64,000 bases of DNA from Pegea sp. RAD2-039 (Eukaryota > Chordata > Thaliacea > Salpida > Salpidae). Below, piece by piece: positions 25,805-63,616 of this stretch; positions within the stretch are counted from its first letter, which is position 1; each line of letters starts with the position of its first letter. Position numbers and translations under genes: made by a program. The stretch lies in NCBI GenBank assembly GCA_034620365.1, contig JAQGEQ010000255.1, forward strand, positions 744,001 to 808,000, given 5' to 3'. The notes under the pieces are model-generated. The model did no database searches and was not told where the DNA came from. It worked only from the letters and a program-made list of their open reading frames with translations.

Positions 25805-25846
25805 TTGTTAAGTAAACTGATACTTATTTTTAATTTAATATAACAG

Positions 25847-26404: not shown

Positions 26405-26985
26405 TGTAATCAGTCAGTAGTTTTTCCATTATTTTTTATATCTTTGTTTTGTGTAAATTCCAAAACTAGTTTATTGGCACATAAATTATATTTTAAGCTA
26501 GTAATTTAAGTTTCATTTAGCTTATACAAGTTTCTAGCGGCATTGCTTGGAAATATTCAAATATTACGTGGCTGTGCTTATAATTTAAATGAAACTTCAG
26601 TTAAATGCCTCAAAACAGTTTATAACTGTTGTAAACAATATGAAAATTCCATGAGTGTATAATATAACTCATAGTTACTTGTAAGCTTTCTAAGGCGTGT
26701 CAGCAATGAACTAGTTTAGAGAAAACGGGTTTTCCAGGCTGGAAAGTAGAATAATTTTATTTATCTTTTCGAGTCTAAGATTCTAAATGATTAATCTGAA
26801 CTCCAATTGAGTACTGAGGGACATTTTAGTATACTAGTAACTACTCGTTATTTTAAAGATTCAACTAAAATTATATGTTTTTCTTTTAAAATCTAATTGA
26901 TCAGCTTGTATAAATAAAAAATTATATTTGCTGAGATTTACAAGATTCTAGTTTACCTTTGAAATCATTTTTTAGTACTACTTAT
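26405..26985 (+). repeat. Upstream repeat unit, block A
   Basis: Corresponds to the first of two diverged tandem units present in block B (46866-47450 and 47452-47850). Shared words include GTGCTTATAATTTAAAT and AACAGTTTATAA. Block A has only the start of the second unit. Confidence 0.55.
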
Positions 26986-27184
26986 AACTAGTCAACAGTT
27001 TTTACATTTGTCAGCAAAGTTTTAATTTTTATTTTCCATTTTTAGTAAGTTTTGCTAATTAAACATTGTAGGATGTAATATTTGAACCACTTCTACTTGT
27101 ATTAGAAATATTAGCAACTACAAATAATTCTTATAATTTCTTCATCTGTCTTTAGGTTTTTGTTCAATAAAAGGATATTGAAAT

Positions 27185-28072: not shown

Positions 28073-28730
28073 GATAAACACTCCCATGAAATTTAAAGAA
28101 GTTTATATCTTGTTTTTTTTCTTATTCATATATACTTGTAACTGTGTATTATTTTCTATAAAGTTCTTTTTTTTTCTATGGAAGAGCTGTATAACGTATC
28201 ATTTAGAATCAGACAAATAGTTAACTAAATAATTTCTGTTGTAAAAACTGATATAAAGTGAAACACTACTATATACATTTTTCTGCGTTGATTTAATAAA
28301 CTTTCTTTTCAAAAATATGTTCAGTAAATTTTGAAAATGTTTATTTCTCTTTAAGACTAAAAGCTCAGAAAATATTTCTTAGTGTTTTTTGTCTGTTAAA
28401 TTTTAACAGTAGTTCTTTAAGATTAGAATAAAAAGTTAAACTTCTAAGACTTTCGTCATACAGTTGTTTTTTTTTAGCTAGTAAAATTACTTGTTAGAGC
28501 CTCTTTAAAATTGTGAAAGTGTTTACACTATTGCTTGATATTGATTCTTTAACAAATGTCAAACTATCGGGTCACTTTTTGTACTTTGCAAGTTTATTGA
28601 GATTAAAAAAACAATTATTGTAAAGAAGTCATTTGTTTTCATTTAATTAAAAGTAGCTTATTTTTGTAATTTAGAAATACAGCTTTACTTCAAAGTCAGA
28701 AGCAAAACAAAGTATATTACTAAATATATA

Positions 28731-29363
28731 GTATATATAGTATATATAGGTATATATAAGTATATATAGTATATATAGTATATATAGTATATATAGTATA
28801 TATAGTATATATAGTATATATAGTATATATAGTATATATAGTATATATAGTATATATAGTATATATAGTATAGTATATATATAGTATATATAGTATATAT
28901 AGTATATATAGTATATATAGTATATATAGTATATATAGTATATATAGTATATATAGTATATATAGTATATATAGTATATATAGTATATATAGTATGTATA
29001 GTATATATAGTATATATAGTATATATAGTATATATAGTAAATATAGTATATATAGTATATATAGTATATATAGTATATATAGTAAATATAGTATATATAG
29101 TATATATAGTAAATATAGTATATATAGTATATATAGTATATATAGTATATATAGTATATATAGTATATATAGTATATATAGTATATATAGTATATATATA
29201 TATAGTATATATAGTATATATATATATAGTATATATAGTATATATAGTATATATAGTATATATAGTATATATAGTATATATAGTATATATAGTATATATA
29301 GTATATGTAGTATATATAGTATATATAGTATATATAGTATATATAGTATATATAGTATATATA
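28731..29363. repeat. Minisatellite, 9-bp unit GTATATATA, about 70 copies
   Basis: Nearly perfect period-9 array over about 630 bp. Variants are GTAAATATA (for example near 29037, 29082 and 29110), one GTATGTATA, one GTATATGTA and two short TATATA insertions that shift the register. Because the period is a multiple of three and lacks in-frame stops, long tripeptide-repeat frames open on both strands. These are artefacts. Confidence 0.95.
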
Positions 29364-30480
29364 AGCAAAATTTGTAACAGAAAACATTTCAGTAGTTCTC
29401 AAAGCTTGCAGCAGTGAACAATTACATAGATTACTAATACTACAGAAAAGGAAAACATCACAGTTTAAAAATGGCAATGTTGGCAATATTATAACGGTCC
29501 TGCTTCTGCTTGACCAACATGAATGACACTGACATGACAATGTGTGATGGCAGATGGTTTCAAGCAAAAATTGTGTGGAATGAGTAACAATTTGCACTGA
29601 TTAAAGTATCAGGTGATATAGGCTTATTAAGATAAAATCAGTGTCGTTTGAGTTTAAAAAAATTAAGAAAAGTACTAATGCATTAGAAATCAACAATTTT
29701 AGTACCAATTAAATTGTGGAAAGTTTCGAAAAAAGAATTATGTCGTACTTAATCTATCAAATTTCTAAATTATCTGAATTTAAAAAGCATAGACAGTGTT
29801 TGTAACTATCTTTTTAATATTAAGTTCCCATTAGAATCGATTTGTTGAAATCACCAACTTATTATAACATACATGCACTAGCATTGTATTCAAGGTTTAG
29901 ATGTACAATCAATTTGAAGAGACAGATAAATAAATATTTAACCTTAAAATAGTAATATGATAGGTTAATGCCAAGGTCTACGACCGAAGATTTTGGTTAA
30001 GTGATAAATCTTTTGATAAAAAATTTGTTTTAAGATTTTGCAGATGGCTTACGGGAGAACACTGTTTCTGCAGTGATATTATCTTCAAAAAAAATATGTA
30101 TAAAGTAAGCAGAAACATTTAAGAACAAAAACATTTAAAAAGCTACGAACTATGCAGGTAAAATAATAAGTAATAAATTTACACTAATTAGTAAATTGTT
30201 TGTTATTTCAGAATACTTTATTAACATTGTAATTGCAACAAAAGAAACTAATCTTATTAATATTAAAGCTATTTAAACTAAATTTCTTACAATAATACTA
30301 GCCTTAAACTTTATGTAAAAAGTTTGGGTTTGGATGGCCTGTGGGAATTACGTAAGCTGTAGAAAAAACTCACAGAGCTCCAAGCTAAATCTCTGTTGTT
30401 TTCAACGAAACTGTTTGCCTGAATTGATCTGGTCGAGTTTTTTCTTCCATGCGTAATATAATTGTGCAGTTTTCTAGATA
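29364..30480 (-). mobile_element. Decayed LINE 3' part in unit X1
   Basis: Minus-strand LINE sequence. It includes the conserved ...CATTGTCATGTCAGTGTCATTC... and TTGGTCAAGCAGAAGCAGGA segments (complement at about 29493-29550) and, higher up, a stretch matching the reverse-transcriptase end (complement of AAGGTCTACGACCGAAGATT at about 29972-29992). The terminal tail is missing because the minisatellite directly abuts the 3' UTR. Confidence 0.6.
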
Positions 30481-31389
30481 ATTTTTTTTAGTTTTTGATA
30501 TTCATTAAATAAGAAATAGGAACTCTTTATTTTGTACATAAAAAAGTATGTATTGTATTAAAGTTGTTCATAATTTTTTAGGAAAATGAAAAAAAGCAAA
30601 ATAAAATTTTAGCACGAATTACAATTTTGATGGTCCTCTAAACAAAGATTTCGTCTCTTTTCAAAAGTTTTAACTCAATAACGGTCCTTATAGATGAATT
30701 AGTAATAAAAAATTGATTATTGCAGTAAATTTTAATGAAATTCCAGAAACAATTAGAAATGTTGAAAGTCTGTAAAAGTAGTCATATTCATATTCAAGAA
30801 AATAGTGCTGAATATGAAATATGTGGATTTCCATAGTTAACAGCAAAACTTAGTATTTAGCAAAAGAATAAACAATAGTGAACGTTTAAATTTATACCTA
30901 AAGTAACTAATTTTTCTCCTTGTAGGTATAAGAAGTCGTACAATTTATAAATGTTAAGATAGAATCCTTTTTTCTATGTGTGTAAAGAAAAACTTTGTTT
31001 CTGGTCTCTTCTAATATGTCTGTAATAAGCTAATTTTAAATATTTTTGTAACTATACAATGTTTCATAAATATTAGTTCAAATACTGTTTAATATACATC
31101 CCTTAAAGAGTCAGTTAAAAGGTTAGCTTATATATTTTTTTCAAAACTACTAATACAAACTCTGAAAGAGTTGTGTCACGTACTTACTAGCTAAATTAAG
31201 TTGTTAATAAAATTTATCTTTCTTTTTAAAATATAACTAACCTAAAGTTACATCACATATTTGTTTCTCTTTCAAACTAATAAACTAATGAATTAAAACA
31301 TTAACAAAGTGTTGTAAAAACCCTTTTAATGAAATCAAATCATAGTAATTAATCAAAATTTAAGTTTTGTTCAATAATCTTTCACGGTA

Positions 31390-34300
31390 GTTCTTCACGA
31401 TTAGGATAAAAAGTTAAAGTTCGAAGACTTTCGTATTAAGGTTGTTTTTTCAGCTAGTAAAATTACTTGTTAGAGCCTCTATAAAATTGTGAAAGTTTTC
31501 ACACCATTTCAGTTATTCACATTTATATAAATATTTATACAAAAGTTTAAACTATTTTATTAAGTTGTTTTGTTAATAAATTGGTTTAATCCATAAGTTA
31601 AAGTGGCTTGATTTACTTTGATGTTTCAAAGTTAGTGCACAAAACAGCCAGTGATAGTTAGATGCACAACCTCCATTAAATTTATTAACAAAAATTTTAT
31701 AGAAATACTTTTGTTTTTCTGATGAATATTTCTAGCAAAAGTAAAACTAAAAAATTGAAATGTTACTGGTCAGACCAATGTAGACTTTAAATAATTTTAA
31801 ATGAAAATTCACAAAAACTCAACTAGATTTCGAAAGACGTTTAACATACATTAATAATAAAAAGGATTATCATTTGTTAAAAGTTTTAAATACTTAATAC
31901 CATTAATAATCTAAAATATTTACGAACATGATCTTAGCACTTTTATGTGCTATCACAGTAAGAGCATACATAACCTTTATATCAACTGTGAGTTAGATAT
32001 TGATTCTTTAACAAGTGTCAAACTGTCGGGTCACTTTTTGTACCTTTGGAAGTTTATTGAGATTATGATAAAAAAATAATTATTGTAAAAAAGTCGTTTG
32101 TTTTGATTTAATTTAAAGTAGCTTATTTTTGTAATTCATGAATACAGCTTTACTTCAAAGTCAGAAGCAAAACTTAGTATATTACTAAATATATAGTATA
32201 TATAGTACTAGCTGCGTACAACTGAATAAATAAAACTAAATTCTGGTTTATAAAAACAGAATAAATTAACAAACATGTAAGTGTTGTACTGAATTTATAA
32301 GTATATATACAAAAATAAAATCTTTAAGAAATGAATTTTTCACTTTGGAAAAAAAATTATATAATAAAGAAAAGTAAATATTCAGAGTTTGTAATAACCA
32401 CCTGTTTGTATTTATTGATGTTTAATTGTTTCTAACAATAAGATGTGAGATGTTGAGTTAAGGAAGACTTCCATTTCACAAGACCAAGTTGGACATTAGA
32501 TAATAGATAGTCATCCACTAAATGCACATTTATTTAATTAGTATATTTGTTTATTTCAGTAAACGCGAAGAAGGGTGCCTGAAGAGAGAGCTTGCCGCTA
32601 CTACACATTCTCTAAAATATAATATATTAAGCTAGAAATATAGAAAGCAAAATTTGTAACACATAACATTTCAGTAGTTCTCAAAGCATGAAGCTGTGAA
32701 CAATTACATAGATTATTAATAATATAGAAAAGAAAAAAATCATGGTTTGAAAATGGCAATGTTGGCAATATTATAACGGTCCTGCTTCTGCTTGACCAAC
32801 ATGAATGACACTGACATGACAATGTGTGATGGCAGATGGTTCCAAGCAAAAATTGTGTGAAATAAGTAAACATTTGCTTCGATTAACGTATCTGGTGATA
32901 TAGGCTTATTAAGATGTAATTGGTGTATTGTGAGTTGATAAAAAATGAAAGAAGTACTAATGCATTAGAAATCAACAAATTTAGTGTCAATTAAATTGTG
33001 GAAAGTTTCAAAAAAAGAGTTATGTCGTACTTAATCTTTCAAATTTCCGAAATATTTGAATTTAGAAATCTTAGACAGTGTTTATAAATATCGTAACTAA
33101 TATTAGGTTCCAATAGAATCAATTTTTAGTAATCACCAACTTATTATAACATACATGCACTAGCATTGTATAAAGGTTTAGACATACAATCAATTTGAAG
33201 AGATAGAAAAAGAAACATTTAACCTTAAAATAGTAATATGATACGTTAATGCCACGGTCTACGACCGAAGATTTTGATGGAATAATAAACCCATTGATAA
33301 AAAATTTTGTTTAAAGATTTTGCAGCTGGCATAAGGGCGAACGCCGTTTCTGCAGTGATATTATCTTCAAAATAAATATGTATAAAGTAAGCAGAAACAT
33401 TAACAACAAAAAAATTTATAAAGCTAAGAACTATGCAGGTAAAATAATAAGTAATAAAATTACACTAATTCATAAAGTGTATATTATTTAAGAATACTTT
33501 ATTAACATTGTAATTGTAACAAAAGAAACTAATCTTATTAATATTAAAGCCATATAAACGATGTTTCTTACAATAATATTAGCCTTAAACTTTATGTAAA
33601 AAGTTTGGGTTTGGATGGCCTGTGGGAATTACGTAAGCTGTAGAAAAAACTCACAAAGCTCCAGGCTGAATCTCTCTTGTTCTCAACGAAACTGTTTGCC
33701 TGAATTGATCATGTCAAGTTTTTTCTTCCTTGCGTAATATAATTGTGCAGCTTTCTAGATGATTTTTTATAGTTTTTGATATTCAGTTAATAAGAAATAG
33801 GAACTCTTTATTTTGTACATCATAAAAGTATGTATTGTATTAAAGTTGTTCATAATTATAAGGAAAATGAAAAAAAGCAAAATAAAATTTTAGCACGAAC
33901 TATAATTTTGATGGTCCTCTAAACAAAGATTTCGTCTCTTTTCAAAAGTTTTAATTAAATAACGGTCCTTATAGATGAATTAGTAATAAAAAATTTATTA
34001 TTGCAATAAATTTTAATAAAATTCCAGAAATAATTAGAAATGTTGAAAGTTTGTAAAAGTATTCATGTTCATATTCAAGAAAATAGGGCTGAATATGAAT
34101 TATGTGGATTTCCATAGTTAACAGCAAAACTTAGTATTTAGCAGTAGAATAAACAATAGTGAACGTTTAAATTTATACCTAAAGTAACTAATTTTTCTCC
34201 TTGTAAGTATAAGAAGTCGTACAATTTATAAATGTTAAGATAGAATCCTTTTTTCTATGTGTGTAAAGAAAAACTGTGTTTCTGGTCTCTTCTAATATGT

Positions 34301-34670
34301 CTGTAATAAGCTAATTTTAAATATTTTTGTAACTATATATTGTTTCATAAATATTAGTACAAATACTGTTTAATGTACATCCCTTAAAGAGTCAGTTAAA
34401 AGGTTAGCTTAGATATTTTTTGCAAAACTACTAATACAAACTCTGAAAGAGCAGTGTCACGTACTTACTAGCTAAATTAAGTTGTTAATTAAATTTATCT
34501 TTCTTTTTAAAATATAACTAACCTAAAGTTACATCACATATTTGTTTCTCTTTCAAACTAATAAACTAATGAATTAAAACATTAACAAAGTGTTGTAAAA
34601 ACCCTTTTAATGATATCAAATCATAGTAATTAATCAAAATTTAAGTTTTGTTCAATAATCTTTTACGGTA
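31390..34670. repeat. Tandem repeat unit X2 (about 3.3 kb)
   Basis: Direct repeat of X1 at high identity over most of its length. The minisatellite locus holds only about two TATATAGTA copies (32190-32206). In addition it holds about 430 bp (32207-32637) missing from X1, including the LINE tail. Confidence 0.7.
32545..33760 (-). mobile_element. Decayed LINE with intact 3' tail in unit X2
   Basis: Minus-strand element. Its tail reads as TTTATTTCAGTAAACGCG on the plus strand at about 32550-32570, followed by AAGGGTGCCTGAAGAGAGAG, the complement of the family's CTCTCTTCAGGCACCC. Further up lie the 3' UTR and reverse-transcriptase-end fragments shared with X1. The frame 32873-32601 has counterparts only in the LINE copies, so it is element sequence and not a host gene. 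Confidence 0.65.
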
Positions 34671-36110
34671 GTTCTTAAAGATTAGGATAAAAAGTTAAAG
34701 TTCGAAGACTTTCGTCTTAAAGTTGTTTTTTTCAGCTAGTAAAATTACTTGTTAGAGCCTCTTTAAAATTGTGAAAGTTTGTTCACCATTTCAGTTATTC
34801 ACATTTATATAAATATTTATACAAAAGTTTAAACTATTTTATTAAGTTGTTTTGTTAACAAATTGGTTTAATCCATAAGTTATAGTGGCTTGATTTACTT
34901 TGATGTTTCAAAGTTTGTACACAAAACAGCCAGTGATAATTAGATGCACAACCTCCAGTATATTTACTAACAAAAAATTTTACAAAAATACTTTGTTTTT
35001 TCTGAAGAATATTTCTTGCAAAAGTAAAACTATAAAATTGACATGTTACTGGTTAGACCAATGTAGACTTAAAATAATTTTAAATGAAACTTAAACAAAA
35101 CTTAAAAAATTTTCGAAAGACGTGTAACATACATTAATAATAAAAAGGATTATCATTTGTTAACACTTTTAAATATTTAATATCATTACTAGCCTAAAAT
35201 ATTTACAAAAATGATCTTAGCACTTTTATGTGCTATTACAGTAAGAGCATACATAACCTTTATATCAACTGTGAGTTAGATATTGATTCTTTAACAAGTG
35301 TCAAACTGTCGGGTCACTTTTTGTACCTTTGGAAGTTTACTGAGATTATGATAAAAAAATAATTATTGTAAAGAAGTCGTTTGTTTTGATTTAATTAAAA
35401 GTAGCTTATTTTTGTAATTTAGAAATACAGCTTTACTTCAAAGTGAGAAGCAAAATAAAGTATATAACTAAATATACAGTATATATAGTATATATTGCTG
35501 TTTAGAACATAACTAATCTAAAGTTTCATTACATATTTGTTTGTCTTTACAACTAATAAACTAATGAATTAAAACATTAACAAAATGTTGTAAAAACCCT
35601 TTTGATTATATAAAATCATAGTAATTAATCAAAATTTTTGTTTTGTTCAATAATCTTTAACGGTAGTTCTTCAAGATTAGGAGAAGAACTTAACCTTCGA
35701 ACACTTTTGTCTTAAAGTTTTTTTTTAGCTACTAAAATTACTTGTTGTGATCTTAGCACTTTTATGTGCTATTACAGTAAGAGCATTCATAACGTTTATA
35801 TCAACTGTAAGTTATATCATGATTCTTTAACAAGTGTCAAACTGTCGGGTCACTTCTTTTCGGTGCTGCCAATATTATACGGTTCTACTTTTGCTTGAAC
35901 AACATGAATGATTCTGACATGACATTTATAAATTAGTGTTTTCTTAATTTTTAAAATGTAACTAACTTAAAGTTTAATCAATTATTTATATCTCTTTCGA
36001 ACTAGTAAAGTAATGAATTAAAATATTAACAAAATGTTATAAATTGCTTTTAATGATATGAAATGATAGTAAGTAATCAAAATTAATGTTTTATACAATA
36101 ATGAAACAAA
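34670..36110. repeat. Tandem repeat units X3/X4, truncated
   Basis: Shortened, more diverged copies. X3 runs to the TATATAG locus (35470-35495, two to three copies). It is followed by partial repeats at about 35515-35760 and 35938-36100 that share TAATGAATTAAAACATTAACAAA. A LINE-like GACATGACATTT piece lies at about 35880-35930. No gene was seen. Confidence 0.6.
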
Positions 36111-38728: not shown

Positions 38729-41700
38729 TCAATCATCATAAAACAGGCATTTTAAAACATCTTGGTCCATATTAGGAGTGCTAATGTTATAAGTAATTCC
38801 GTTTAAGTTAAATAATCCGTCATCTTTCTCGTTCAATTGGTTTGAATCAGATAAAGGATTAGAGGAAGAAGGACATGGTGTAACTTGATTACTTGAAATA
38901 GTACCGATTGAAAATTTATGTCTTAGTTGTAATTGTAATTCACCCTGTGGATAAATTTCCATCTGTTGATATCTATCATCATAAAACAAAGATTCGAAAA
39001 CATCTTGTTCCTTATTAGGAGTGCTAATATTATAAATATTTCTGTTTAAGTTAACTAATCTGGCGCCATTCATGTTCACTTGGTTTGATACAGTTGAAAG
39101 GACAGTGTAAGAAGGACCTGGTGTGACTTGATTACTTGACGTATTACCAGTTGGTATCTCATGTTGTGGTGGTACTTTTAAGTCAACCTGAGGATAAGTA
39201 TAAACCTGCTGATATCCATTATCAGAAAACAAGGATTCTAAAACAACTTGGTCCTCATCAGGAGTGCTAATGTTATAACTAAATATGTTTAAGTTATTTG
39301 ATCCAGCATCATTCATGTTCACTTGGTTTGAATCAGATAAAGGAATAGAGGAAAAATGACATGGTGTTACTTCGTTATTTAACATAGTACCGATTGGCAT
39401 CTCATGTCTAGCTGGTACTTGTAAATCACCATAAATATAAGTATATACGTGCTGAAATCCATCATTATAAAACAAGCAATTTATAGTATCTTGATCCTTA
39501 TTAGGAGTCATGTTATAACCATTTCTGTTATTCAATGTGGTGTATTTAATGTTCACTTGGTTTGATACAGATGAAGGGATTAAGGAAGAAGAACCTGGTG
39601 TGACTTTGTTTGTTTCCATTTTACTATAAGCATTGTTGCTAGCTTGTAAGTTACATCTGTTGATTCTTATATCTACTGGTTCAATGTTTGAAGTAGATGG
39701 TTGTATAGATGGAAGGTAGATTGATCGAACTAGATCAGTTGATGTCGTGCTAATAGAAGTTTCGTTTGTCAGTGGTACTTGACCAGCAAGAATGAAAGGT
39801 TTCTTTTCATGACTCTTGCCGCAATGGAATAATCTGTCCATCATATCATTTATATTTTTGTTGACCACATACGTCATTACTTTCGTTTTTGACTGGTTAA
39901 ATTCAGCTCTATTTCCAATCCAACTGTTTATTGTAGGTCTAAGTAGACTTGGAGAATTGATTTGTCGCGAAGTGATTGTCGAAGAAGCCGATTGTAATTT
40001 GATGTGTTTCTGGCATTTTGAAAGATTATATGTGTAAGAATTTTCAGGAACAAACATATTTGCGCCAAAAGGACACAATAAAGGATGATTATTAGTTTTA
40101 TTTTTAGTAATTGGTAGAGGTATAGCATCTTCAGGAGCGGCTGCTTGTGATAATTCTGATGTGTTTGCAGATTTGGAAGTTGATAAACCCTAAAATATCA
40201 AGCTTATAGTAGATCAGCATACTATCCAACAATAACTTACAGTTTGTTTTGAAGAGTTTTCTCCAGGGTTTTTTTTTACATGCTTCTGCTTTTTTTTGGA
40301 TTTAGAGTAATGACGAGCTGGATATTCTTCACTCATTTTTTTAGAACTAAAAATGAGAAAAAAAGGCGATAAAAATATTAAAAGCATCAAGTATATCTAA
40401 TGAGAACTTTTCTGCTATCAAAAAACTAAAAAAAGTTAGTTTGATAAGCTAAATGATATTTATAAGTAAAAGTTTTTGATTTACTGTTTTTCGTGGCAGA
40501 ACATGTGCTGGTTAAAGTGACCTCTATGTTTAAATACCTGTCCACAACCTGGCCAGTCACAAATGAATTCACGGACACCAGTATGTATCAGACTAAAACC
40601 AGTTTAGTAGAGAATTAGTATAATTTCAATCAAGTTTAATCAAAACTTAAAAGTTTACAAAGATTACATAAGGAACTTAATTGCAAGTTTATAAACACAT
40701 CTATAAAATCTGATTTTAAATTCATTATGAACCTATAATGAGTTCGAAGATGGTCTATGCGCGTATAAGATTTATCACATTCAGGGCACTCATAAGGTTT
40801 ACATCCACTATGAACTTGTTCATGTTCCTTTACCAAATGCTTAGTAGGAAAACCTTTTTTGCAATACTTGCATCTGCATCAAGTTTGAGTATATTATTAT
40901 ACAACATATATATAAAAAGCTATGATTAAAACTAATTTTGATTAATTTTATATTGCTTAGAATTTTTCAACAATTATAAGTTGTTATTAAACAACACTTA
41001 GATTATAGTAAAAAACGTGCAGAATTAAAATGCTCTAAATTCATAAAAATTTCTATATACCTTTATTAACTACCATTAACTATATTAGTTTCTATTAAAA
41101 AAGATGTCATTGGTTAGTCTGATCTACCTGTAACGATTTGGTTCATCATCATTATGTGTTTGTGAATGTACAGTTAGAGAACTTTTATCGAAAAATAGCT
41201 CCTATAAGAAAGCATAAAACTTGAAGTAAACAACTTTTATAAGAAAGATAAAATTTTGAAATTTACCAAGCAAAATTTACACGAAAATGTTTTCTTTACT
41301 CTTCTGACGGGTTTATGATTCACTTTTTTAGTTTTAGATGAACGGCTATTCTTACGGATCACCTTAATATCAAATTGAAAAATTGTTTAAAACAATTGAG
41401 TAACAGTTTAAAAAATTACATTAAATCAGTATAAATATCAATTAGGATTTGTAGTTAGCTGGATAAAAATAAAAATTAAAGCACAACTTAAATAATATCA
41501 AACTAAAAACAAGTTATAAATATATGTATTAGGCAGCAATAACAAAATGATAAAAATTAATTTAGGAGAAAAGTAACTTAGAAATGTAAACTAGAAGAGA
41601 GAGAAGCAAAGAGAGAGAAGTAAACTAGAAGTATCTAGTGGATAGGTTGTTGAATAACCTGTGAATTTTCTCCTTGTGAACTATCAGTTGAACCTTGTGC

Positions 41701-43210: not shown

Positions 43211-44115
43211 GTAAAAATTATTTCTTTAAGGCAATATTGAATCTTTTTTATAAGTAAAAAAGTCATTAGCTTGATTAGCTGAAACTATAAAACTATAATA
43301 ATTCACTGCAAATAAGAGTATAACGAAGCAAATCAGAAAAACATCAACATATGGTTTTCCATCATTTTTCAAATAACAACGTAGAGGGTTAGCAACAATA
43401 TTTACTTATTTTCGTCAATATTGAACCGTTGTTTTGAAATTAATTTCACCTTACTTTAAGTTAATATGCTTTTACATTAACTTGCCAGAAAGTTAAATCT
43501 AACAAAATGATGACATCATCAGCCTAAAACCTCATGTCAGAGAAATTGATGGCTAATGCAAAAATACTTAAAATGATAAAACAAGTTTCATCTGAGTTTG
43601 CTGTTGGTATGTTAGCAAAAAAAAAATCAAAAATTGTGTTTCTACTATTATATATAACAACATTCAGAAATTTGTAATAAAGTATAAATACCTGTTAAGT
43701 CAGCTCAAATATATTTTAATTATTAAAAGTGTCTCACAAACTTTGGAAACAAGTCAATTAGAGAAAAAGAATTTTCAAGAAGTATATGAAGTACATTTAA
43801 GACTTGACTAAAATAATTTTCAATTACCTTTCTTACAGGAAATAATTAATCATTTTGTATTGATATGTATTGAATTTAGTAATATATTGAAAAATAAATT
43901 TTCAATAATTAAAAGTGCTTTTTTAAAAGTATAAAACTCACTGGCTTAGTTATTAGAAACAAAATTATAACTAAGCTGCACAAACATGTTGTTTTTGATC
44001 TTTATTATGGTTAAAATTACATAGGCTGAGATATTAGAATAACTTTCATTATAAGTTTTCATTTCCAAAAACATATAAAAAGTGATCAACAACTCATACA
44101 ATAACAAGAATTATT

Positions 44116-44398
44116 AATTTCAGCTAAAATTTAAGAAAAAAGCAAAAACTTAAATAAAAGTTCAAAAGCACGTGACCTATCAAAATTCATTTTTATTAAA
44201 ACTTTTAATTTAATCTAATTAAGGATTTTATTTAAACAATATAAAATTATCTGTAACTATTAAAGTTATTACGTCATATAGCTTTCTATTCTAAGAGCTT
44301 ACAGTAAGTTTGACCAGTGGAACTCAATTCTCTCGGTTACCAAAATTAAGATTAAAACAATTTAGTACAAGATTACATTTATGAAGGTACAGTGCAAA
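44116..44398. promoter_or_regulatory. Nearly invariant noncoding block (B copy)
   Basis: Partner of 24480-24760, with the same E-box and half-CRE order. Confidence 0.45.
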
Positions 44399-44721
44399 TA
44401 GAGGTTAGTTTTAACAAAAATTTACAAATATTGTAATAATTAAAAAATAAATAAATGTAGTTACCACTTTAGACGTCAGCAAGTAGAAGTTTTAAGTATC
44501 TTCCCTGTTTTGTATTCACTCAACTTGATAAAAAGATTCTTTAAGGAGTCAATTAGTCCGCTGTAAATGCAAGAGAAAAATGAACAACTTAGTCAAGCTA
44601 AGCCATAAGACTGAATAAATTTTATACAAAAAAGGCAATAATAGTTCTTTAATTAGAAAAAGATAAAAATATGTTTTTCTCTCGTTATAAAAAAAATATA
44701 ATCGAGAGATATCTACAGTAG

Positions 44722-44729
44722 TGACGTCA
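44722..44729. promoter_or_regulatory. Palindromic CRE (TGACGTCA)
   Basis: Counterpart of the 25078 site, with the flanks GTAG and TCTAGTC conserved. Confidence 0.45.
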
Positions 44730-45510
44730 TCTAGTCGAGAAATTTTTATTTATTTAAAAGATTTGTAAATTAGTCTTTTGTATGATTTAAACCTAAATTA
44801 TATTTTATATATCTACTTTACCTCTGTTATAAAGTCTATTAGAAAATAATGATGACTTTATCAGCAAAAAAAAATGGAATAAAAAAGTTAATACTAATGT
44901 AAAAATATAATTCAAAACAATAACAAGGTCTGGTGCACCACTTCTGCTGGAATGTTAATAAAATTAACTATTGACTATTAATATTAATGTTAAATATTAA
45001 TTAATCACTAATTACTTATTACTTTTTTACTAAAAAGTCTAATCATTCCTAGTTTTAATAATTCAATGGTAGGTTATTAGAATTTATTTTTTCATAATTA
45101 ATTCAAACTCATTGACGTTGGGTTATAATTAGAACATCTATATATTGAGAAATGGAAACATATGTGAAAAACTAACTTGAGTTACCGATAATTAAGTAAT
45201 CGGTCAGGGGTCTTAAACAAATGAATACAAGTGAGTGATTAGTAAAAATTTTAGTATCATTAGCAAGACTTTATGCAACTTTGTGAAATTAGTGACAAAG
45301 TTTTAATTTCCTCAATAAAACTAATAAAATTTAAGGCTAGTAAGTCTGCGTAAGGGGATACTGACTGGAAAGCGAATAAAAAAGTGAATTAGATTTATTG
45401 GTCATCTTTTGATATTACACAAATTTGAGAAAAAAGCTTGCGCCATAGTTCATAGTAGTTCAGAAGATCTGGATAGTTCTTTGGTTTTCAATCGTAATAA
45501 TTTTTTGTAG

Positions 45511-45930
45511 AAACAAACTCGTGGCAGTTAATATCTTCAGAACTAGTCTAAATGAATACGCTGTTACTAGTGATACCTATAAAAAACGATTGAAAGAACT
45601 TTTTAATGACAAACTGAGATATTATATTAACAGTTTTTTTTTTTATCTCATCTTTCATTTAACTCATTTTGTATGATCGAAGACTTTTAAAGAATCCAGT
45701 ATTAATGTTTCAACGACATTTATCCATGGCAATCCATCTTTTAGCTGGAACATACTCGTTTACAGTCAATACAAATCCCAGAAAAATCATACAAACAATT
45801 TTAAGTAGGTCTATCGACCAAGAAGTTCAAGCTTTGACGAAATGATATCAAATAACAAAAATTTGCTGCGCTATTCACTATTAAAAATTATACATCTGTT
45901 AAAAGTAAATATACAAATTTTGATAACATA
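45511..45930 (+). pseudogene. Degenerate coding fragment, copy 2
   Basis: Frame reads AVNIFRTSLNEYAVTSDTY, KKRLKELFNDKLRYYI and then, in another frame, TYSFTVNTNPRKIIQTIL. It aligns with 37251-37725 but has its own stops and frame changes. It sits in sequence present in block B and missing from block A. Confidence 0.45.
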
Positions 45931-46268
45931 GCTTCATAAATTACAACTTAAAGTGTTTTTAATAAAATAATTTAAAGCAGCAACCATTACAATTTTTCAA
46001 AATAGAAATTATTAAGATGTCTTACAAAAACTCTTTTGTTTTATCTTTAAAGTATATTTTCTAAAAAGAATAAAGAAAACGTTTAGTAATCAACAAAATC
46101 TGATCAAAGTTGATGCTAAATAACAAAATGACGTCGCTATACATGTCATTATTTAGAAGTTTTTACTAAAATTCTGAATGATTTTCTTTAGAATACTTAA
46201 AACTGCTTTTCTTTAATATAAATATAGAAGTGATATTTCTATTTTTAAAAGTTAGTTGATTATGATAA

Positions 46269-46276
46269 TGACGTCA
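46269..46276. promoter_or_regulatory. Palindromic CRE (TGACGTCA)
   Basis: Counterpart of the 25797 site, 43 nt upstream of the conserved candidate exon. Confidence 0.45.
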
Positions 46277-46318
46277 TTGTTAAGTAAACTGATACTTATT
46301 TTTAATTTAATATAACAG

Positions 46319-46359
46319 AAACAAAGAAACTGAAGAAACCTGTGGCATTACAAGAAAAG
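46319..46359 (+). other. Candidate 41-nt exon, block B copy
   Basis: Identical to 25847-25887, with the same acceptor and donor. Probably a 5' exon of 7TM copy B. Confidence 0.45.
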
Positions 46360-46865
46360 GTAAATCATATTTATAAACAAGATATTATAAAAAGGTTTTT
46401 AATATGATGTAGTGACAGAGATCGAAAAATAATTCTAAACTGAGGTTACCCTACAAAAAATAAGTTCTCAGTTAGGTTGATTTTTAGCGATGCACCTCCA
46501 GGCATTAGTTAATTTTTACAATCCTTAAAACTATCATTGAAATAAATGAATTTATACTAAAGATAGAATGACAGCCTCCAAATGAAATGACTGGTATGTC
46601 ACCAGTAGGTACAGCATATCTAGTAGATTGTCTGTAAACAGACTTAAGCTTTATTGTATTTTTCTAGAAAATAGAACTTTAAACAGCAGAGTTGTATTCT
46701 AATTTTGTAATCAGGCAAATTTTTTGTATTTAGTATAAACTAGTATTTCAAAGAAACAAGTAAGATTAAGCTATCTTATTCAAATTGTGATAAATCAGTA
46801 TTTATTAAAACATAAATTAAAATTCTAGTGATTTACAACATTTTATATTACATTTGAAAGAATTT

Positions 46866-47850
46866 TCTATTCTTACTTGTAATCAGTCAGTAGTTTTTCC
46901 ATTATTTTTTATATCTTTGTTTTGTGTAAATTCCAAAACTAGTTTATTGGTAGATATATTATATTTTAAGCTAGTAATTTAAGTTTCATTTAGCTTATAC
47001 AAATTTCTAGCGGCATTGCTTGGAAATATTAAAATATTATGCAGTTGTGCTTATAATTTAAATTAAACTTCAGTTAAATTCCTTAAAACAGTTTATAACT
47101 GTTGTAAACAATATGAAAATTCCATGAGTGTATAATATAACTCATAGTTACTTGTAAGCTTTCTAAGGCGTGTCAGCAGTGAACTAGTTTAGAGAAAACG
47201 GGTTTTCCAGGCTGGAAAGTAGAATAATTTTATTTATCTTTTCGAGTCTAAGATTCTAAATGAATAAGTTGAACTCCAATTGAGTACTGAGGGACATTTT
47301 AGTATACTACTAACTACTCGTTATTTTAAAGATTCAACTAAAATTGCATGTTTTTCTTTTAAAATCTAATTGATCAGCTTGTATTAATAAAAAATTATAT
47401 TTGCTGAGATATACAAGATTTTTATTTACCTTTGAAATCATTTATTAGTACTAATTATAACTAGTCAACAGTTTTTACGTGATTTTAAAAAAATTATTTT
47501 TGTGAAAACTCAAAAATTATTTTGTTGGTCTATATAAATATTAAACTATATTAAGTAAGTATTTTCAGTTTTATTTGTTGTACAAACTATTCTAGTGGCA
47601 CTCCTTTTACTATTTAAAGAACAAGCAGCTGTGCTTATAATTTAAATTAAATATGGTTAAATGCCACATAACAGTTTATAAGCAATGTAGCCAAAATAGA
47701 AACTTGATGACTGTATTATATGACTTATCGTTGCTTGTACCCTACCTTAGGAAAGTCATTCATTTATTAGTTTAGAAACGAAGATTTTTTCAAGGCTTTG
47801 ATTAGTTTAATTCAAATTTTATTTAAAAAATGTCTGTAATATTTAAACAT
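46866..47850 (+). repeat. Two diverged tandem units upstream of 7TM copy B
   Basis: Units at about 46866-47450 and 47452-47850 share GTGCTTATAATTTAAATTAAA, AACAGTTTATAA and TAGTTTAGA-type words in the same order. Block A lacks the 369 bp corresponding to 47479-47847. Confidence 0.55.
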
Positions 47851-48027
47851 TTGTCAGCAAAGTTTTAATTTTTATTTTCCATTTTTAGTAAGTTTTGCTA
47901 ATTAAACATTGTAGGATGTAATATTTGAACCACTTCTACTTGTATTAGAAATATAAGCAACTAAAAATATTTCTTATAATTTCTTCATCTGTCTTTAGGT
48001 TTTTGTTCAATAAAAGGATATTGAAAT

Positions 48028-48945
48028 ATGAATTCTACACATTCTAACACGACCTTGAGAAGAATCCAAGATTTGGGGGTTTACAAGTATATTCTTGAAT
48101 TGACCAACATTCTCTTTTTGATTCTTACAATTTGGTTAACTGTCTCTTTCAAGCTTTACATGATTAAGAAAGTCGCTACAAACAAAAGTAAAAAATCGTT
48201 GAAAAAGTTGCTAAATTTAACATTTTTGATTTGTATCTTTAATCTTATAAGATTGGTTTTAACTCAAGCTACTTTTTTTATTGGTCGCTTTGCTGAGATA
48301 AATGATATTGGAAACAACTTGTGCAACATAACGATAAAGATATCTTCTCTGGAGTTGGCCTTCTGCTATTTGCCTATGAACAGTTTTTTTTGGTTAAGAC
48401 AAAAGATTGTTTGTAAGAATTCAACATTGAAAATAGAAACGATTAAAACTATAAGATTGCTGAGCAACATGACTTTCCTGATCTTCAGCGTGGTTTTATT
48501 TTCTTTCTTTCTTGTCGTACTTCTTTTAGAAGATTATGAAATGTCAATTGCCGGATGTATAGCAGTTGAACAGCGTAGTGGACACAACTGGTATTCCTAC
48601 ATTGGAGTGAGTTTCTGTATTGTTTTTCATCTGATCACCTTTTTTCTGTTTGTCTACCCATTCATGGCTCGTCGACGAAACTCTAAAAAGAATAAAAAAG
48701 TGACAGATGCCTTAATCATATCGATGCGAACAATGGTTCTTTTCACGTTGCTGTCCATTATTACTTTTGTACTAAGAATTTTGTTGATTCCTGATTTTTA
48801 CCCTGTTTGTTTCTTGACAACCTCCTTAAATATTGTCTTTTTCTTCAAGCTAATTGTTATTTTAACTTCTTTTGAAGAATACCCGAAAATCTTTCTATCA
48901 GCGTCTCTGCTTTGTAATCGAGATAAACACTCCAATGAAATTTAA
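48028..48945 (+). CDS. Seven-transmembrane receptor-like protein, copy B
   Basis: 305-residue single-exon frame with the same seven hydrophobic segments, sequons, Cys99/Cys177 pair and basic third loop as copy A. It differs at about 11 residues over the shared part, several of them conservative changes in TM4 (FSFFLVVLLL against FSFLLIVLIL). The C-terminus is longer than in copy A, ending LLCNRDKHSNEI, and includes a Cys-containing tail that could be palmitoylated (inference). It is probably the less altered copy. Spliced 5' UTR as in copy A. Confidence 0.75.
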   Translation: MNSTHSNTTLRRIQDLGVYKYILELTNILFLILTIWLTVSFKLYMIKKVATNKSKKSLKKLLNLTFLICIFNLIRLVLTQATFFIGRFAEINDIGNNLCNITIKISSLELAFCYLPMNSFFWLRQKIVCKNSTLKIETIKTIRLLSNMTFLIFSVVLFSFFLVVLLLEDYEMSIAGCIAVEQRSGHNWYSYIGVSFCIVFHLITFFLFVYPFMARRRNSKKNKKVTDALIISMRTMVLFTLLSIITFVLRILLIPDFYPVCFLTTSLNIVFFFKLIVILTSFEEYPKIFLSASLLCNRDKHSNEI

Positions 48946-54159: not shown

Positions 54160-55019
54160 CTAAACGTAAAAACCTTTTTTTGTCATACAAAAATATATAC
54201 TATTAAAGTACTATCTTTATCATGCATTTAATTTCTTTATCTTAATCTTACAGCTACCATTAGTTTTAATTGAAACTTTACAGCTTACAAAGGTTAACAA
54301 AAAGATTTTTGAAGAATTTAATTCAACAACAGACTTATATCACAATTCGAATTAAATCAAAAAATTGTCTTTACTTGTTATTAAGAACTATCATTGTAAT
54401 GATTTGGCAGACAAACTCTTAGAAGTATCGAAGCCACTTTTTTAAAAGGGTTAAGACAAATCTAGTTAAGTTAATACTTTTGAATTGGCTACAAGGTGGG
54501 GGAATTACCGTAACTGTTACCATTAGTATTCATATTTAGTTTCCATTACTTCAATAACAAAGAAGGACTAAGGATTAAAGTACTGAGCTATGAAAAAAAA
54601 AAAATCATTAATATTGTAATCTTTACCAAAATAATATAGAGATAAACTATTTTTTTAAAGTTTTCTTTTATAAATATTATAAAAAAAGTTTTATAATTAT
54701 GTTAAATTCTTTATTAATAATAGGGGCCTTCTATGGTCGAAAACGGCGTAATTTCATTCTAGCATAATTTTCAAATGAAACTCCAAATTGTACAAAATTT
54801 TATAGTATTATGAGATTTGATGATTTCTCAAATACTACTTATTGATTAATAACAATTAGTAAATTTATATTTTTTAAGGAATAAAATAATTTTAGATCTT
54901 TTTTTGAGTCTTCCATCATTGTATTAGATAATATTTGAGTCTTGCAAAAAACTCGTTAATTTGTCTGTTTTAAATTTGAAAATCAAATACTTTGTGCATA
55001 TGGCTAGTCACTGCGATTC

Positions 55020-56118
55020 TCTCAATTCTTTGTGAACTTGAATGTTTCTCAAGAAGCGTTTTCTATGATATCCAGGTGCAAGGCCTCCCTTTCCCACATT
55101 AAAAACATATATTTGATTGAGCTAGATATTTTTAAAAATCATGAATTTTTATCTCAACATTTTAAACCCACCTTCTGTATGGATGCTATCATCGATTCTG
55201 ATTGGTTCTCACTAAGGACCCACTATCTCTTGTGTATCTTCCACCGTTCTGCTGACTCTAGATTATTAGTTGTTGCGTCGGGCATCTTTAAGTTTCACCG
55301 ATTGGTGAAAAGCTTCTGCTAAATTCTTTGAACTAACAACCGTTGTCTTATCTCTGACGAGGATGTTACATCTGTACATGACTCCCTTAGTGATTAACCT
55401 GACTTTTGCCTATAAGCTAGTAGCGAATGACAAACACAAATCTCATTGCATTGATTTTCTTGCATACAACGATTGCAGCATTACTGCAGCTTCTACATAA
55501 TACGGACAGCTCTTAGTTTAGAACTTAGTTTCCATGCGGCAGGATTGCTCATGCGGCAAGAGTCCACTCTCCACGCCAACAAGGTTATCCAGCAAAACAA
55601 AGTGACTGAGCCATTGCAAAAGCTGCCAGAACGATACTGCAGTAACATATTATTGCAACATAGTATTGTAGTAACAAACTGCTTACAAAGCTAAAACTTT
55701 AGGTTTAAGTTCGGAGACTTGCGTCTTGTAGAAGTGTTATCATTAAGCAGACTAACACAGCCCTTCTACCCTGGTTTTATTTGGACTTTTCCCTATTGCA
55801 AATTCCCACCTGAGCTAGTATTTATGACCCTCCGCGAGTTAGGCGAGTATAGTAACCGCTACACAAGTATTATAAATTGCCAATATTGACATTTCTAAAC
55901 TGCGAAGTTTTCCCTTTTTTAATATTATTATAATTCTAATTGTTCACTGTAATATGCTTTGAATGCTATCGAATACCATTTTTTTACTTTCCATATTTTA
56001 GACTAAACAGATGTTATTTGTGAGAATGTGTGTTAGCATGAGGTGCTCACTTCAGGTACCCTCCTTTGCATTTATAATAATAAATAAATAAATGAATAAA
56101 TAAAAACAAATAAATAAA
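55020..56118 (+). mobile_element. Internally deleted LINE, unit 1
   Basis: The left part (55032-55322) reads like the end of an endonuclease domain: FSLRTHYLLCIFHRSADS resembles the ...gvvYRpPnS... strand of LINE endonucleases, by family knowledge. The rest is noncoding-like and ends with the family 3' UTR, GAGAATGTGTGTTAGCATGA, GGTGCTCACTTCAGGTACCC, GCATTTATAATAATAAATAAATA. The reverse transcriptase is missing. The frame 55473-55694 is element sequence. Confidence 0.65.
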
Positions 56119-57100
56119 GTATTTAGGCTTTTGATTTGTTATTCTGGATGTCTGCTTTAAATGAATTTGTGAACTAATTTTAGAAACAACAAGTATTCAA
56201 AAAATAACTTCTTGAGAAAATATAAAGATAAAAAATAATTTGATGCACAATTTATCAAAGATTGTATTGATTTTGTATACGAGCAGACATTCAAAATTTA
56301 AGAATCTAATAGTTATTTTTTGCCCATTGGTAATCATCATTGAAGCCAATAATTCACAGACTCCATAAACGGTTTGTTTGTTTTTAAAATTATTTTTCCT
56401 CAATTGTTAATCTTTTTAGATTTGAGAAGTAAACATTACTATTTTTTTTGTAAAAATATGATTAAATATATACTTTTTGACAAACTTTATGAAAATCTAA
56501 AAACTAATCAAGCAAAGTTTTGCTATTTAAACTCATGATTTAGGAGTTTTCTGAGATGAAATAAAGTAGAGTTTGGTTTGTTTTCTTTGTAATAACTAGT
56601 CAAAATTATTTCAATTTTTGTTACAGATTTTTGTATCAAAAATAAATTATTTATTTTTTCATGAGTTTATAATTTTGTAATATTGCTAGTTGTTAAGATG
56701 AAGAAAATTATGAAAATAATTCTTGGTGATGCACCTTAAAAATTTTTTATAGTTTTATATAATTCTTTATAATTTTTGTTAAAATTTGTACTTGTAAAGA
56801 AAATTTTAATAATAAAGTTTATTAAATTCAGGAAAAAAATAATATTGCATTCTTCATTGTAATGATTTAATTCAATTTTTTTTGTTTTTGTTTTTATTAG
56901 ACATTTAAATTTTTGTTTATATAATATTTTACAAAAATATATATTTTAGATTTATGAGCTTAAGGTCTTGTACACAAGTAATTTTGCTTATTATTCTAAA
57001 CTTTCTATAAGTTTTTTCATTAAGTCATTATTACAAAACTAAAAAGTTAAGATATTTCATGTTTTTTATACTGCAATTAAAGCATTTCATTTCGCTTAAG
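56119..57100. other. Upstream region of SENP8-like copy 1
   Basis: AT-rich flank duplicated in unit 2 (61389-62325). The 68-codon minus-strand frame at 56197-56403 is kept in both units only because the duplication is recent, and it has no support as a gene. Confidence 0.4.
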
Positions 57101-57108
57101 TATAAAAG
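57101..57108 (+). promoter_or_regulatory. TATA box of SENP8-like copy 1
   Basis: TATAAAAG in context CTTAAGTATAAAAGATC, 129 nt before the start codon. Its position and sequence are identical in unit 2. Confidence 0.6.
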
Positions 57109-57229
57109 ATCATTTCACTCCTTAGTTATATGATTTTAGTGTGATGTGTTCATCAGCTTATTTTACTTTTTATAGAAATTATTTATTTAAATTTTGATTC
57201 AAAACCAAAGTGACACTTCCATAAAACAG

Positions 57230-58269
57230 ATGGCTGACAGTAATCAACACATTTTGGAAGAATTAGAAATATTAAAAGACCCGTCAAGCTGGCTTAATGA
57301 TGTAATAATAAACTCTTACATTAAATTAGTTCTAAGGGATAGATCAAATTGGATTGCTGTGGACTCTTTTTTGATTGAACATGTAAGACAGATGAAGAAA
57401 AGAAATTCTACAAGAAAAAGATCTTTTTTACCCTCTGGATGGGTGGAAACTGGTAATATGTTGATTCCAATTTTTAGTGGAAATCACTGGTCACTATTAC
57501 ATGTCCAACCGCTCCAGGGAAAACTGAGGTATTATAACTCACTATCCCCTTCATTTAAAGATACTGAAGCAGTTGATGTAAGTTTTGGTTTAATGTTTTT
57601 TTTCAATTATATATTTGATTATTTAGAAACTTTTAGTTACATGATAAACTAATTTGATAAATGTCTTAAATATTATAGCATCAAAGACACAGTTTGTTGT
57701 AGTAAGACTTAGATAAGAAATGACTCTCAGACTGATCTCAGCATACATTGAAAAGCTCAGACACAACTTGACAACTGAAAGCTTCATTAAAAAGAATATA
57801 ATTAGTGTGAAATTAAACTTACAACTAAGAAAAACTAAATTATATTCTTGAACAGTTAATTGCTGAATATTTAGCTGAGGAGTATCGTTTGGCTCGTGGA
57901 AAAGAAATAGTCTGGGAACGAACCACAGAAATGGTTAATATTTAAGTGATTTATTTAAATACAAAACTTCAATTGTAAGAAGTTCAGAGTTTGAAATGTT
58001 ATTAATTTATTCTACAGTTAAGTAAATAATAGATTTAGCTGGTCTTTTAGTCTTGAAGAACTTTAAATAACTTATAAATTATGAAGCAAAACATTTGATT
58101 TATTATGTTTCAGGAACCATTACAAACCAACTCACATGATTGCGGAGTATTCGTCTGCATCTTTGCAAGAATCGTTGCTGAAGATTTATCTAAACGAATA
58201 ACACCATCAGATGTTCAAAGTTACCGCAAAGTGATCCAAATTGAGCTAACTCAACAAAGCCTTGCTTAA
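57230..58269 (+). CDS. SENP8/NEDP1-like C48 cysteine protease, copy 1
   Basis: Exons 57230-57577, 57856-57933 and 58114-58269, all phase 0 with GT-AG borders, encode 193 residues, close to the compact SENP8 type (about 210). An in-frame TAA at 57188 fixes ATG 57230 as the first start. LKDPSSWLND at about 15-24 is the classic Ulp N-terminal motif. IPIFSGNHWSL carries the catalytic His86, PLQTNSHDCGVF carries Gln146 (oxyanion hole) and nucleophile Cys152. The acid position in YYNSLS is Asn103 and not the usual Asp. Family knowledge: such enzymes remove NEDD8 or SUMO from lysines in cytosol and nucleus; NEDD8 preference is inferred from size and the N-terminal motif. Activity is uncertain because of Asn103, although Asn serves in papain-type triads. 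Confidence 0.9.
57720..57850 (+). other. Open-frame relic inside intron 1
   Basis: LISAYIEKLRHNLTTESF is readable in intron 1 and resembles the exon 2 helix LIAEYLAEEYRLARGKE. Its phase does not fit a clean splice from exon 1, so it looks like a decayed duplicate of exon 2. Also present in unit 2 (from 62945). Confidence 0.35.
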
Positions 58270-58385
58270 AACAGCCAAGAAGATCTATAAGACTACTAGA
58301 AGTTTATCAGCACATTCTACTCCTTTAAGTTATATATTTTCAAACCGTTGCTCTTTAAGTTAAATTTCTATTTGCTATTTTGTTC

Positions 58386-58391
58386 AATAAA
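58386..58391 (+). promoter_or_regulatory. Poly(A) signal, SENP8-like copy 1
   Basis: AATAAA 117 nt past the stop, followed by a T run and TGTTCAATG. Confidence 0.65.
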
Positions 58392-58419
58392 AACCTTATT
58401 TTTTCAAATGTTCAATGAA

Positions 58420-59720
58420 TGGTCTTTAAGGTGATTGATTGAGTTTAAACAAACAAAAAGTTAAAGCTGCGTATGTGGGCATAAATCACATTCTAAATGG
58501 TTGGAAGCTAAGGACTTTATAGTGTATATATCTTATTTCTAATAGAATTTAGTTTAATTCATCTATAACTACCGCTAATATTGATATGACCAAGTTTTCG
58601 TATAGTAGAGCTTATTGATAGCTATCAACATTCCTGTACCCAAGACTATACGAAAATCAAACATAATTAACTTTCTACAACTATTTCTTCCTATTATTGA
58701 CCAAAATTTTGTTTACTTAAAATTTTCAATTAAGTAAAAACTCGTTATTAAATTAAGATGCTTTTAAATAAGAAAAATCTCTTTAAAAATATCAACAGTT
58801 CAAAATTCTACTAGTCAATAGAAAAATTAAGTGTATTATATATAAAAATGTAAAAAATATGCAACACAATTATGCAAAGTTGAACAGCCTGTTCAGACAT
58901 GTATAAAAAAATTGAAAGAACGATGCCGTTGAAAATCGATCTCTGAAATTTAAAACTCATGTCGCCAAAGACTCATGTTTAAACTTACAAAAACATAATC
59001 TAAATGGGATAAAGTAATTAGCAACAAATTTACTGAACACAGATACTCATAACCAGCTAAATAGTTATCTCAGAAGCTTTATTCCAGATCGGCGTTGAGA
59101 CGCGTCAAATGCTGGGAGTTTCTCAAAAAAGAAAACTGCAAAAAATATAACGAGTTAAGATGTCACATTAAAATATGATACTAAAAATAACTTTTTGGAT
59201 TTTCACGAGTTACAATTAGAAATCTGTCAGGTACTTCACACCCTAAAGTGGTTAATGAGGTTTTATTGACTGCAGACTAGTCTTTGATGTTCAGAAATGT
59301 GCTTTAAAGTCGGTTAGGGTCTAGAAAATCATTTGATTGTTATATTAACAAGAAAATCTGCTTATAAATTTTAGTACTAATAGAGGCAATAATGACAGCA
59401 TTTATTGGTGTTAGAGATTCAGTTTAATCATGTACTTTTCCAAAAAATGACAACTTTAACGAAACTACAAGGCTTACATGATCTAAACCTGTTTACAAGG
59501 CCTATAACTGCTATTATAATAAACTTTGCACATCAAAATGCATGATATTATTGTATTCCCAGACTAAAGAAAATGCCATCGCTATCTATCGAATAAATAC
59601 AGAAACTGTCTCTACTTTGGGGAGTTTCCCACGAAGGAAACTGGAAAAAAAAATTATTTATGATTTCACAATCAAATATGATACTAAAGATAACTTTTGA
59701 CATTACAATGTTATGTTATT
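58420..59720. other. Gene-less 3' part of unit 1
   Basis: AT-rich, no exon seen. Positions up to about 58775 are matched by the end of the window in unit 2; the remainder has no partner here. Confidence 0.4.
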
Positions 59721-62325: not shown

Positions 62326-62333
62326 TATAAAAG
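62326..62333 (+). promoter_or_regulatory. TATA box of SENP8-like copy 2
   Basis: TATAAAAG, 129 nt before ATG 62455. Confidence 0.6.
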
Positions 62334-62454: not shown

Positions 62455-63494
62455 ATGGCTGACAGTAATCAAACAATTTTGGAAGAATTAGAAAGATTAA
62501 AAAACCCATCAAGCTGGCTTAATGATGTAATAATAAACTCTTACATTAAATTAGTTTTAAAGGATAGATCAAATTGGATTGCTGTGGACTCTTTTTTGAT
62601 TGAACATGTAAGACAAATGAAGAAAAAAAATTCTACAAGAAAACGATCTTTTTTACCCTCCGGATGGGTGGAAACTGGTAATATGTTGATTCCAATTTTT
62701 AGTGGAAATCACTGGTCACTAATACATGTCCAACTGCCCCAGGGAAAACTGAGGTATTATAACTCACTATCCCCTTCATTTAAAGATACTGAAGCAGTTG
62801 ATGTAAGTTTTGGTTTAATGTTTTTTTTCAATTATATATTTGATTATTTAGAAACTTTTAGTTACCTGATAAACTAATTTGATAAATGTCCTAATTATTA
62901 TAGCATCAAAGACACAGTTTGTTGTAGTAAGATTTAGATAAAAAATGACTTTCAGACTGATCCCAGCATACATTGAAAAGCTCAGACACAACTTGACAAC
63001 TGAAAGCTTCATTAAAAAGAATATAATTAGTTTGAAATTAAACTTACAACTAAGAAAAACTAAATTATATTCTTGAACAGTTAATTGCTGAATATTTAGC
63101 TGAGGAGTATCGTTTGGCTTGTGGAAAAGAAATAGTCTGGGAACGTATCACAGAAATGGTTAATATTTAAGTGATTTATTTAAATACAAAACTTCAATTG
63201 TAAGAAGTTCAGAGTTTAAAATTTTATTAATATATTCTACAGTTAAATAAATAATAGATTTAGCAGATCTTTTAGTCTTGAAGAACTTTAAATAATTTAT
63301 AAATTATTAAGCAAACCATTTGATTTATTATGTTTCAGGAACCATTACAAACTAACTCATATGATTGTGGAGTATTCGTCTGCATCTTTGCAAGAATCGT
63401 TGCTGAAGATTTATCTAAACGAATAACACCATCAGATGTTCAAAGTTACCGCAAAGTGATCCAAATTGAGCTAACTCAACAAAGCCTTGCTTAA
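62455..63494 (+). CDS. SENP8/NEDP1-like C48 cysteine protease, copy 2
   Basis: Exons 62455-62802, 63081-63158 and 63339-63494, the same structure as copy 1, 193 residues. About 11 residues differ (among them H7T, I14R, D17N, an Arg to Cys in the exon 2 helix, and His to Tyr just before the DCG motif, giving NSYDCG as is common in SENP8). His86, Asn103, Gln146 and Cys152 are all unchanged, and there is no stop or frameshift. The duplicate is intact and likely expressed from its own TATA box. Confidence 0.9.
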
Positions 63495-63610: not shown

Positions 63611-63616
63611 AATAAA
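63611..63616 (+). promoter_or_regulatory. Poly(A) signal, SENP8-like copy 2
   Basis: AATAAA at the same distance from the stop as in copy 1. Confidence 0.65.

Follow-up and report, generated by a model that had tools for sequence, protein, structure and literature searches.

A clade of SENP-like C48-fold genes with asparagine in place of the triad aspartate in a salp, and a possible His-Asn-Cys active site

Two tandem genes of the salp Pegea sp. RAD2-039 encode proteins of the Ulp/SENP (C48) fold in which asparagine stands in place of the aspartate of the His-Asp-Cys triad. Judged from sequence, they would be genuine C48-fold proteases kept by selection, providing an active His-Asn-Cys isopeptidase for a modifier that ends in Gly-Gly; a probability of roughly 0.6 is assigned to this reading. 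The asparagine is probably part of a functional active site of another design and not the mark of a broken copy. The original prediction had offered three explanations, namely a papain-like His-Asn-Cys triad, a slow enzyme, or a NEDD8/SUMO-binding pseudoprotease; the first of these, as a putative triad, appears the best supported. Both genes lie in the window, which is the whole stretch of 64,000 nucleotides analysed here (mean ~26.5% GC), on contig C58 of a 105.7 Mb assembly, whose 71 homeodomain matches mark it as animal.

In the first copy, positions 57527-57541 read AGG TAT TAT AAC TCA, or R-Y-Y-N-S. The AAC codon of Asn103 (57536..57538, plus strand), placed opposite the triad aspartate by reading of the sequence and by a 10-sequence alignment, is followed by the TCA codon of Ser104 (57539-57541). 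The second copy carries the same AAC TCA at 62761-62766, with Asn103 encoded at 62761-62763, which confirms the expectation that both tandem copies would share the replacement. Each gene consists of three exons on the plus strand, encoding 193 amino acids. Exon 1 of copy 1 (57230..57577, from splice reading and tblastn) covers residues 1-116 with Trp21, His86, Trp87, and Asn103; exon 2 (57856..57933) was matched to a counterpart in a third gene, described below, and exon 3 (58114..58269) holds Gln146, Cys152, and the stop. In copy 2, the exons occupy 62455..62802, which includes the Asn103 codon, 63081..63158, and 63339..63494, the last again with Gln146, Cys152, and the stop. All four introns of the two copies are GT-AG and phase 0, at identical positions, and neither frame contains a frameshift or a premature stop; the predicted retention of His86, Gln146, and Cys152 in otherwise intact copies is thus borne out. 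A TATA-box-like TATAAAAG, a putative promoter element, starts 129 bases before the ATG in both genes (57101..57108 and 62326..62333, plus strand), and AATAAA, a likely poly(A) signal, follows each stop (58386..58391 and 63611..63616, plus strand), giving each copy the look of a gene complete in itself. Sequencing error is an unlikely source of the asparagine, since AAC is found at three loci, one of which is ~40% different in protein sequence.

The profile searches link the proteins to the family. Pfam Peptidase_C48 (PF02902) matches the two window proteins with 68.5 and 75.9 bits (E 9.8e-19 and 5.1e-21), the curated cut-off being 20.7 bits. In phmmer searches of the PDB with copy 1, SENP5, SENP2, and SENP1 come out on top (best chains 8.8e-12 to 2.8e-11), followed by Ulp1 (5.4e-8) and SENP8 (5.1e-6). 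A profile of the three asparagine-bearing genes ranks SENP1 first and places SENP1, 2, and 5 above Ulp1, and Ulp1 above SENP8; the third gene alone matches SENP1 at 7.7e-9, and SENP8 is absent from its 17 PDB matches at E<=1. The catalytic columns were compared in the 10-sequence alignment, which comprises the three asparagine-bearing genes, human SENP1, 2, 5, and 8, and three further genes of the same genome (C1, C10, and C3), whose rows were assembled by hand from open frames and are approximate. His86, Trp87, Gln146, and Cys152 are identical in all ten rows and Trp21 in nine. In C48 peptidases the triad is completed by aspartate; at residue 103 the alignment has asparagine in 3/3 members of the clade and aspartate in the 7/7 others, and on this ground the asparagine genes are filed as a C48-fold variant, judged by sequence, and not as canonical members. 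With SENP1/2/5 and Ulp1 (MEROPS C48, ULP1 class) they share the profile fold, His/Gln/Cys, the Trp tunnel residues, and the best PDB scores. Identity to human SENP1/2/5 is 25-30%, the clade differing from these by Asn for Asp, and the window genes have, in contrast to these, no N-terminal extension. In their domain-only size, near 200 residues, and in the C48 fold, they resemble SENP8/NEDP1 (Den1).

C48 genes were found at six or more places in the genome, a lower bound, as the searches listed the best candidates: the two window genes, a paralogue on contig C293, and one gene each on C1, C10, and C3. The C1 gene is of SENP1 type with the motif YLDS, and the C10 gene, classed from its sequence, is of SENP6/7 type with VFDS. 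The C3 gene is of SENP8 type and keeps the aspartate in its motif HYDS; it was detected solely with the human SENP8 query, which hit it weakly over residues 1-42 (E 0.0035), and its remaining exons were picked out visually among open frames. Its pairing with human SENP8 in the tree has a support of 100/99. All three asparagine genes fall into one clade (100/100), whose branch, at 2.9 changes per column, is very long. The label "SENP8-like" given to the window genes beforehand finds no support: PDB scores favour SENP1/2/5 and Ulp1, SENP8 being the lower-scoring match, and a separate His-Tyr-Asp-Ser gene of this genome already pairs with human SENP8. Orthology of the window genes to SENP8 is rejected in view of this distinct gene; a tree with a deeper clade that joins the asparagine genes to SENP8 is not rejected (AU p 0.42). 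The grouping with SENP1/2/5 has a support of just 49/72, in a tree from which SENP3 is absent. Two further same-strand open frames seem to lie inside introns of the SENP8-type gene (C3:1532800-1536800), one long and Ser-rich, the other with a start, GITGGIASGKST, which we take to be like that of dephospho-CoA kinases. Frames that are presumably NEDD8 and exon pieces that are presumably SUMO were also read by eye in the genome, so both modifiers seem to be encoded there.

The C293 paralogue bears on the age of the replacement. Its model has 385 amino acids in four exons, with the introns of the protease part placed as in the window genes, and it carries the motifs IYNS (codon AAC), SHW, and VQDNLNDCG, thus keeping His, Gln, and Cys. 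Over 184 codons it is 59-60% identical to the window proteins. As the asparagine is common to genes at this distance, the change from Asp is older than their split, assuming that it happened once. The original prediction that it preceded the tandem duplication accordingly holds, and the same AAC codon in C293 moves it back even before this older divergence. Relatives in viruses were sought in viral_contigs with the three-member alignment, where none of 62 pattern matches was confirmed; the two peptide patterns used were narrow, which makes this a weak negative.

The retention of Cys, His, Gln, and both Trp in the three genes makes an active His-Asn-Cys enzyme the likeliest reading. An ancestral Asp-to-Asn change would have produced a His86-Asn103-Cys152 triad with Gln146 as the oxyanion residue. 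The side chain of Asn103 may hydrogen-bond the imidazole of His86 and hold it, and Cys152 would attack the bond that follows the terminal Gly-Gly of a ubiquitin-like modifier, whose tail would be threaded under Trp21 and Trp87, presumably the SENP tunnel tryptophans. SUMO is slightly favoured as the putative modifier by the similarity to SENP1/2/5. In papain, Asn175 holds the catalytic His by a side-chain hydrogen bond, and Asn187 is taken to play that part in pS273R, the protease of African swine fever virus (ASFV). Among cysteine proteases of the papain-like superfamily, the third residue can be Asn, Gln, Asp, or Glu, according to the cited part of one account (PMC10318531), and the tail of the modifier in SENP enzymes is described, likewise in an excerpt, as passing a tunnel lined by tryptophans (PMC10919355).

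The closest precedent is the clan CE protease pS273R (C63) of ASFV, for which the cited excerpt gives the triad His168-Asn187-Cys232 (PMC9866604), the same residues as proposed for the salp clade. Its Asn187 mutant is reported, in the relevant passages of two papers, to be inactive (PMC12090767, PMC9067533), so asparagine in the triad slot can be catalytic. As pS273R cleaves viral polyproteins, it serves as a mechanistic analogue and not as proof that a SENP tolerates Asn; it is not among the PDB sequence matches listed for copy 1, the three-member profile, or C293. The ElaD study, in its cited part, searched clan CE with His, Asp (or Glu or Asn), and Cys, and an alignment legend there gives the third residue of ElaD and SseL-type proteases (C79) as aspartate or asparagine, the holder of the asparagine going unnamed in that legend (PMC1847702). 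These proteins are bacterial, and ElaD is a tested deubiquitinase, whereas the clade described here is animal. Two plant reviews, in the passages concerned, list His, Gln (or Asn), Cys for the triad of clan CE; according to one (PMC6759571), an asparagine also helps to stabilise the histidine, and His, Asp, Cys is cited there as well. We read this as a confusion with the oxyanion residue, yet it is a printed statement touching Asn in ULPs. The third residue goes unnamed in the cited portion of a paper on bacterial clan CE enzymes (PMC4961225). Asparagine in the triad slot is thus already known in clan CE outside the eukaryotic Ulp/SENP families. The literature on altered triads yielded no named eukaryotic Ulp/SENP with Asn as third triad residue, in a search that left most subscription journals outside and is therefore weak evidence of absence.

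The main rival to an active enzyme is a binding-only role, in which the Asn form would bind SUMO or another modifier, cleave it too slowly to matter, and act to read or shield conjugates. A pseudo-enzyme is commonly suspected when the acid is lost, and the long branch of the clade, which also fits an altered function, is counted against activity. The C293 protein could be read in the same direction, as its aligned catalytic domain is preceded by a region of 201 residues (24% acidic, 20% Ser/Thr) with three hydrophobic-acidic patches resembling SUMO-interacting motifs. However, four of five patterns for such motifs are not enriched in this protein (P 0.20-0.44), the fifth, which is enriched, was shaped post hoc, and the window copies lack the region altogether. 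A binder, moreover, need not keep the Cys, His, Gln, and two Trp that all three genes retain. A binding-only domain would show a selection signal similar to that described below, which also counts against the active-enzyme reading; on balance the pseudoprotease is considered unlikely, though it is the alternative that survives best.

That the family is dying, with relaxed, decaying duplicates in which the asparagine was an early lesion, is improbable in light of the substitution pattern. The tandem units (54480..59000 as aligned, plus strand, and ~59725 to beyond 64000) differ by 137 substitutions in 4468 aligned bases and by 11 indel events; the duplication is young, at ~3% divergence. Ahead of the stop, 21 of the 579 coding bases are not the same in the two copies, nor are 11 of the 193 residues, and substitution rates are alike in exons and non-exon sequence (0.036 vs 0.030, p 0.44), as decay would have it. 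Decay also finds an echo on contig C22, where two broken C48 fragments with stops were matched up to residue 89 only; as they end before residue 103, they are silent on Asp versus Asn. Against it, none of the 11 indel events falls in an exon, although this would occur by chance with P 0.19 and is not significant alone. Neutral simulations disfavour drift in both comparisons. With the mutation spectrum taken from the flanks, the probability of 11 or fewer amino-acid changes between copies 1 and 2 is ~0.013, and ~0.004-0.005 when the lack of a stop is also demanded. Between copy 1 and C293, 167 bases have changed and 111 of 184 residues are unchanged, whereas 500 neutral simulations kept a mean of 79.9 residues and a maximum of 95, and all 500 gained a stop; drift is disfavoured by this difference. 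The dN/dS ratio is 0.33 (NG86), 0.38 (YN00), and 0.40 (ML) for the tandem copies, and 0.35 (NG86) and 0.27 (ML) for copy 2 against C293. For copy 1 against C293, where synonymous sites are near saturation, it depends on the method (NG86 0.38, YN00 0.20, ML 0.90), the ML value being the discordant one, and the spread of 0.20-0.90 is held against the active-enzyme reading. Taken together with an asparagine common to genes that are 40% diverged in protein, these results argue for purifying selection and against drift. Neither mark of a pseudogene, a broken frame or neutral evolution, was found in the window genes.

It is less probable still that another acid took over and that an Asp/Glu triad persists. 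Asp111, Asp45, and Glu50 are among the acids that are invariant in the clade and not in the other rows of the alignment, but the aspartate column itself is occupied by the asparagine, in the 10-sequence alignment and also in HMMER pairwise alignments, where Asn103 stands opposite the Asp of the YDS/LDS motif in SENP1, 2, and 5; no such acid falls at that column. Very little credence can be given to A-to-I editing by which AAC would be read as GAC and Asp restored in the transcript. A single edit of the type made by ADAR would suffice, and two loci of the genome match the adenosine-deaminase family. Folding of five stretches, however, leaves the site unpaired in each prediction (probability of pairing 0.05-0.16), and editing would be required separately in three genes.

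A more ambitious proposal, offered tentatively and with some doubt, is that these genes make up a fourth stable class of SENP-like isopeptidases with a His-Asn-Cys triad in this animal lineage, beside its canonical SENP1-, SENP6/7-, and SENP8-type genes. On that view, a papain-style active site would have arisen inside an animal Ulp/SENP family and been kept through at least two duplications, perhaps tuned to another pH, redox state, or substrate. A change of Asp to Asn in an Ulp/SENP active site invites the label "inactive", and the clade bears on whether such enzymes get wrongly annotated as dead. A natural animal clade in which selection keeps Asn, in a genome that also encodes paralogues with Asp for comparison, makes it directly testable whether the SENP scaffold works with Asn.

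Several other features were observed in the window. Within the tandem duplication, the segments 55230-55730 and 56230-56730 are ~99% identical to their counterparts in unit 2, the exons being 96.4% identical; no reason for this was found. The minus strand has long ORFs at 18687-20766 and 38729-40189 that contain repeats of 243 bases, the first and larger one with a zinc-finger-like start; two of three frames were scanned and gave no Pfam match over the cut-off. A second duplication, with copies ~20 kb apart (24373-28072 and 44016-48945), is 93-99% identical in the five blocks listed and 81% in a further block (21210 vs 40622). It carries a hydrophobic, apparently seven-pass ORF (27182-28072 and 48025-48945), for which Pfam gave no match at E<=0.1. 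At 28617-29417 there is an array of 9-base units in which several frames are open, and a block adjoining it recurs at a spacing of ~3.28 kb (about 29363-35726).
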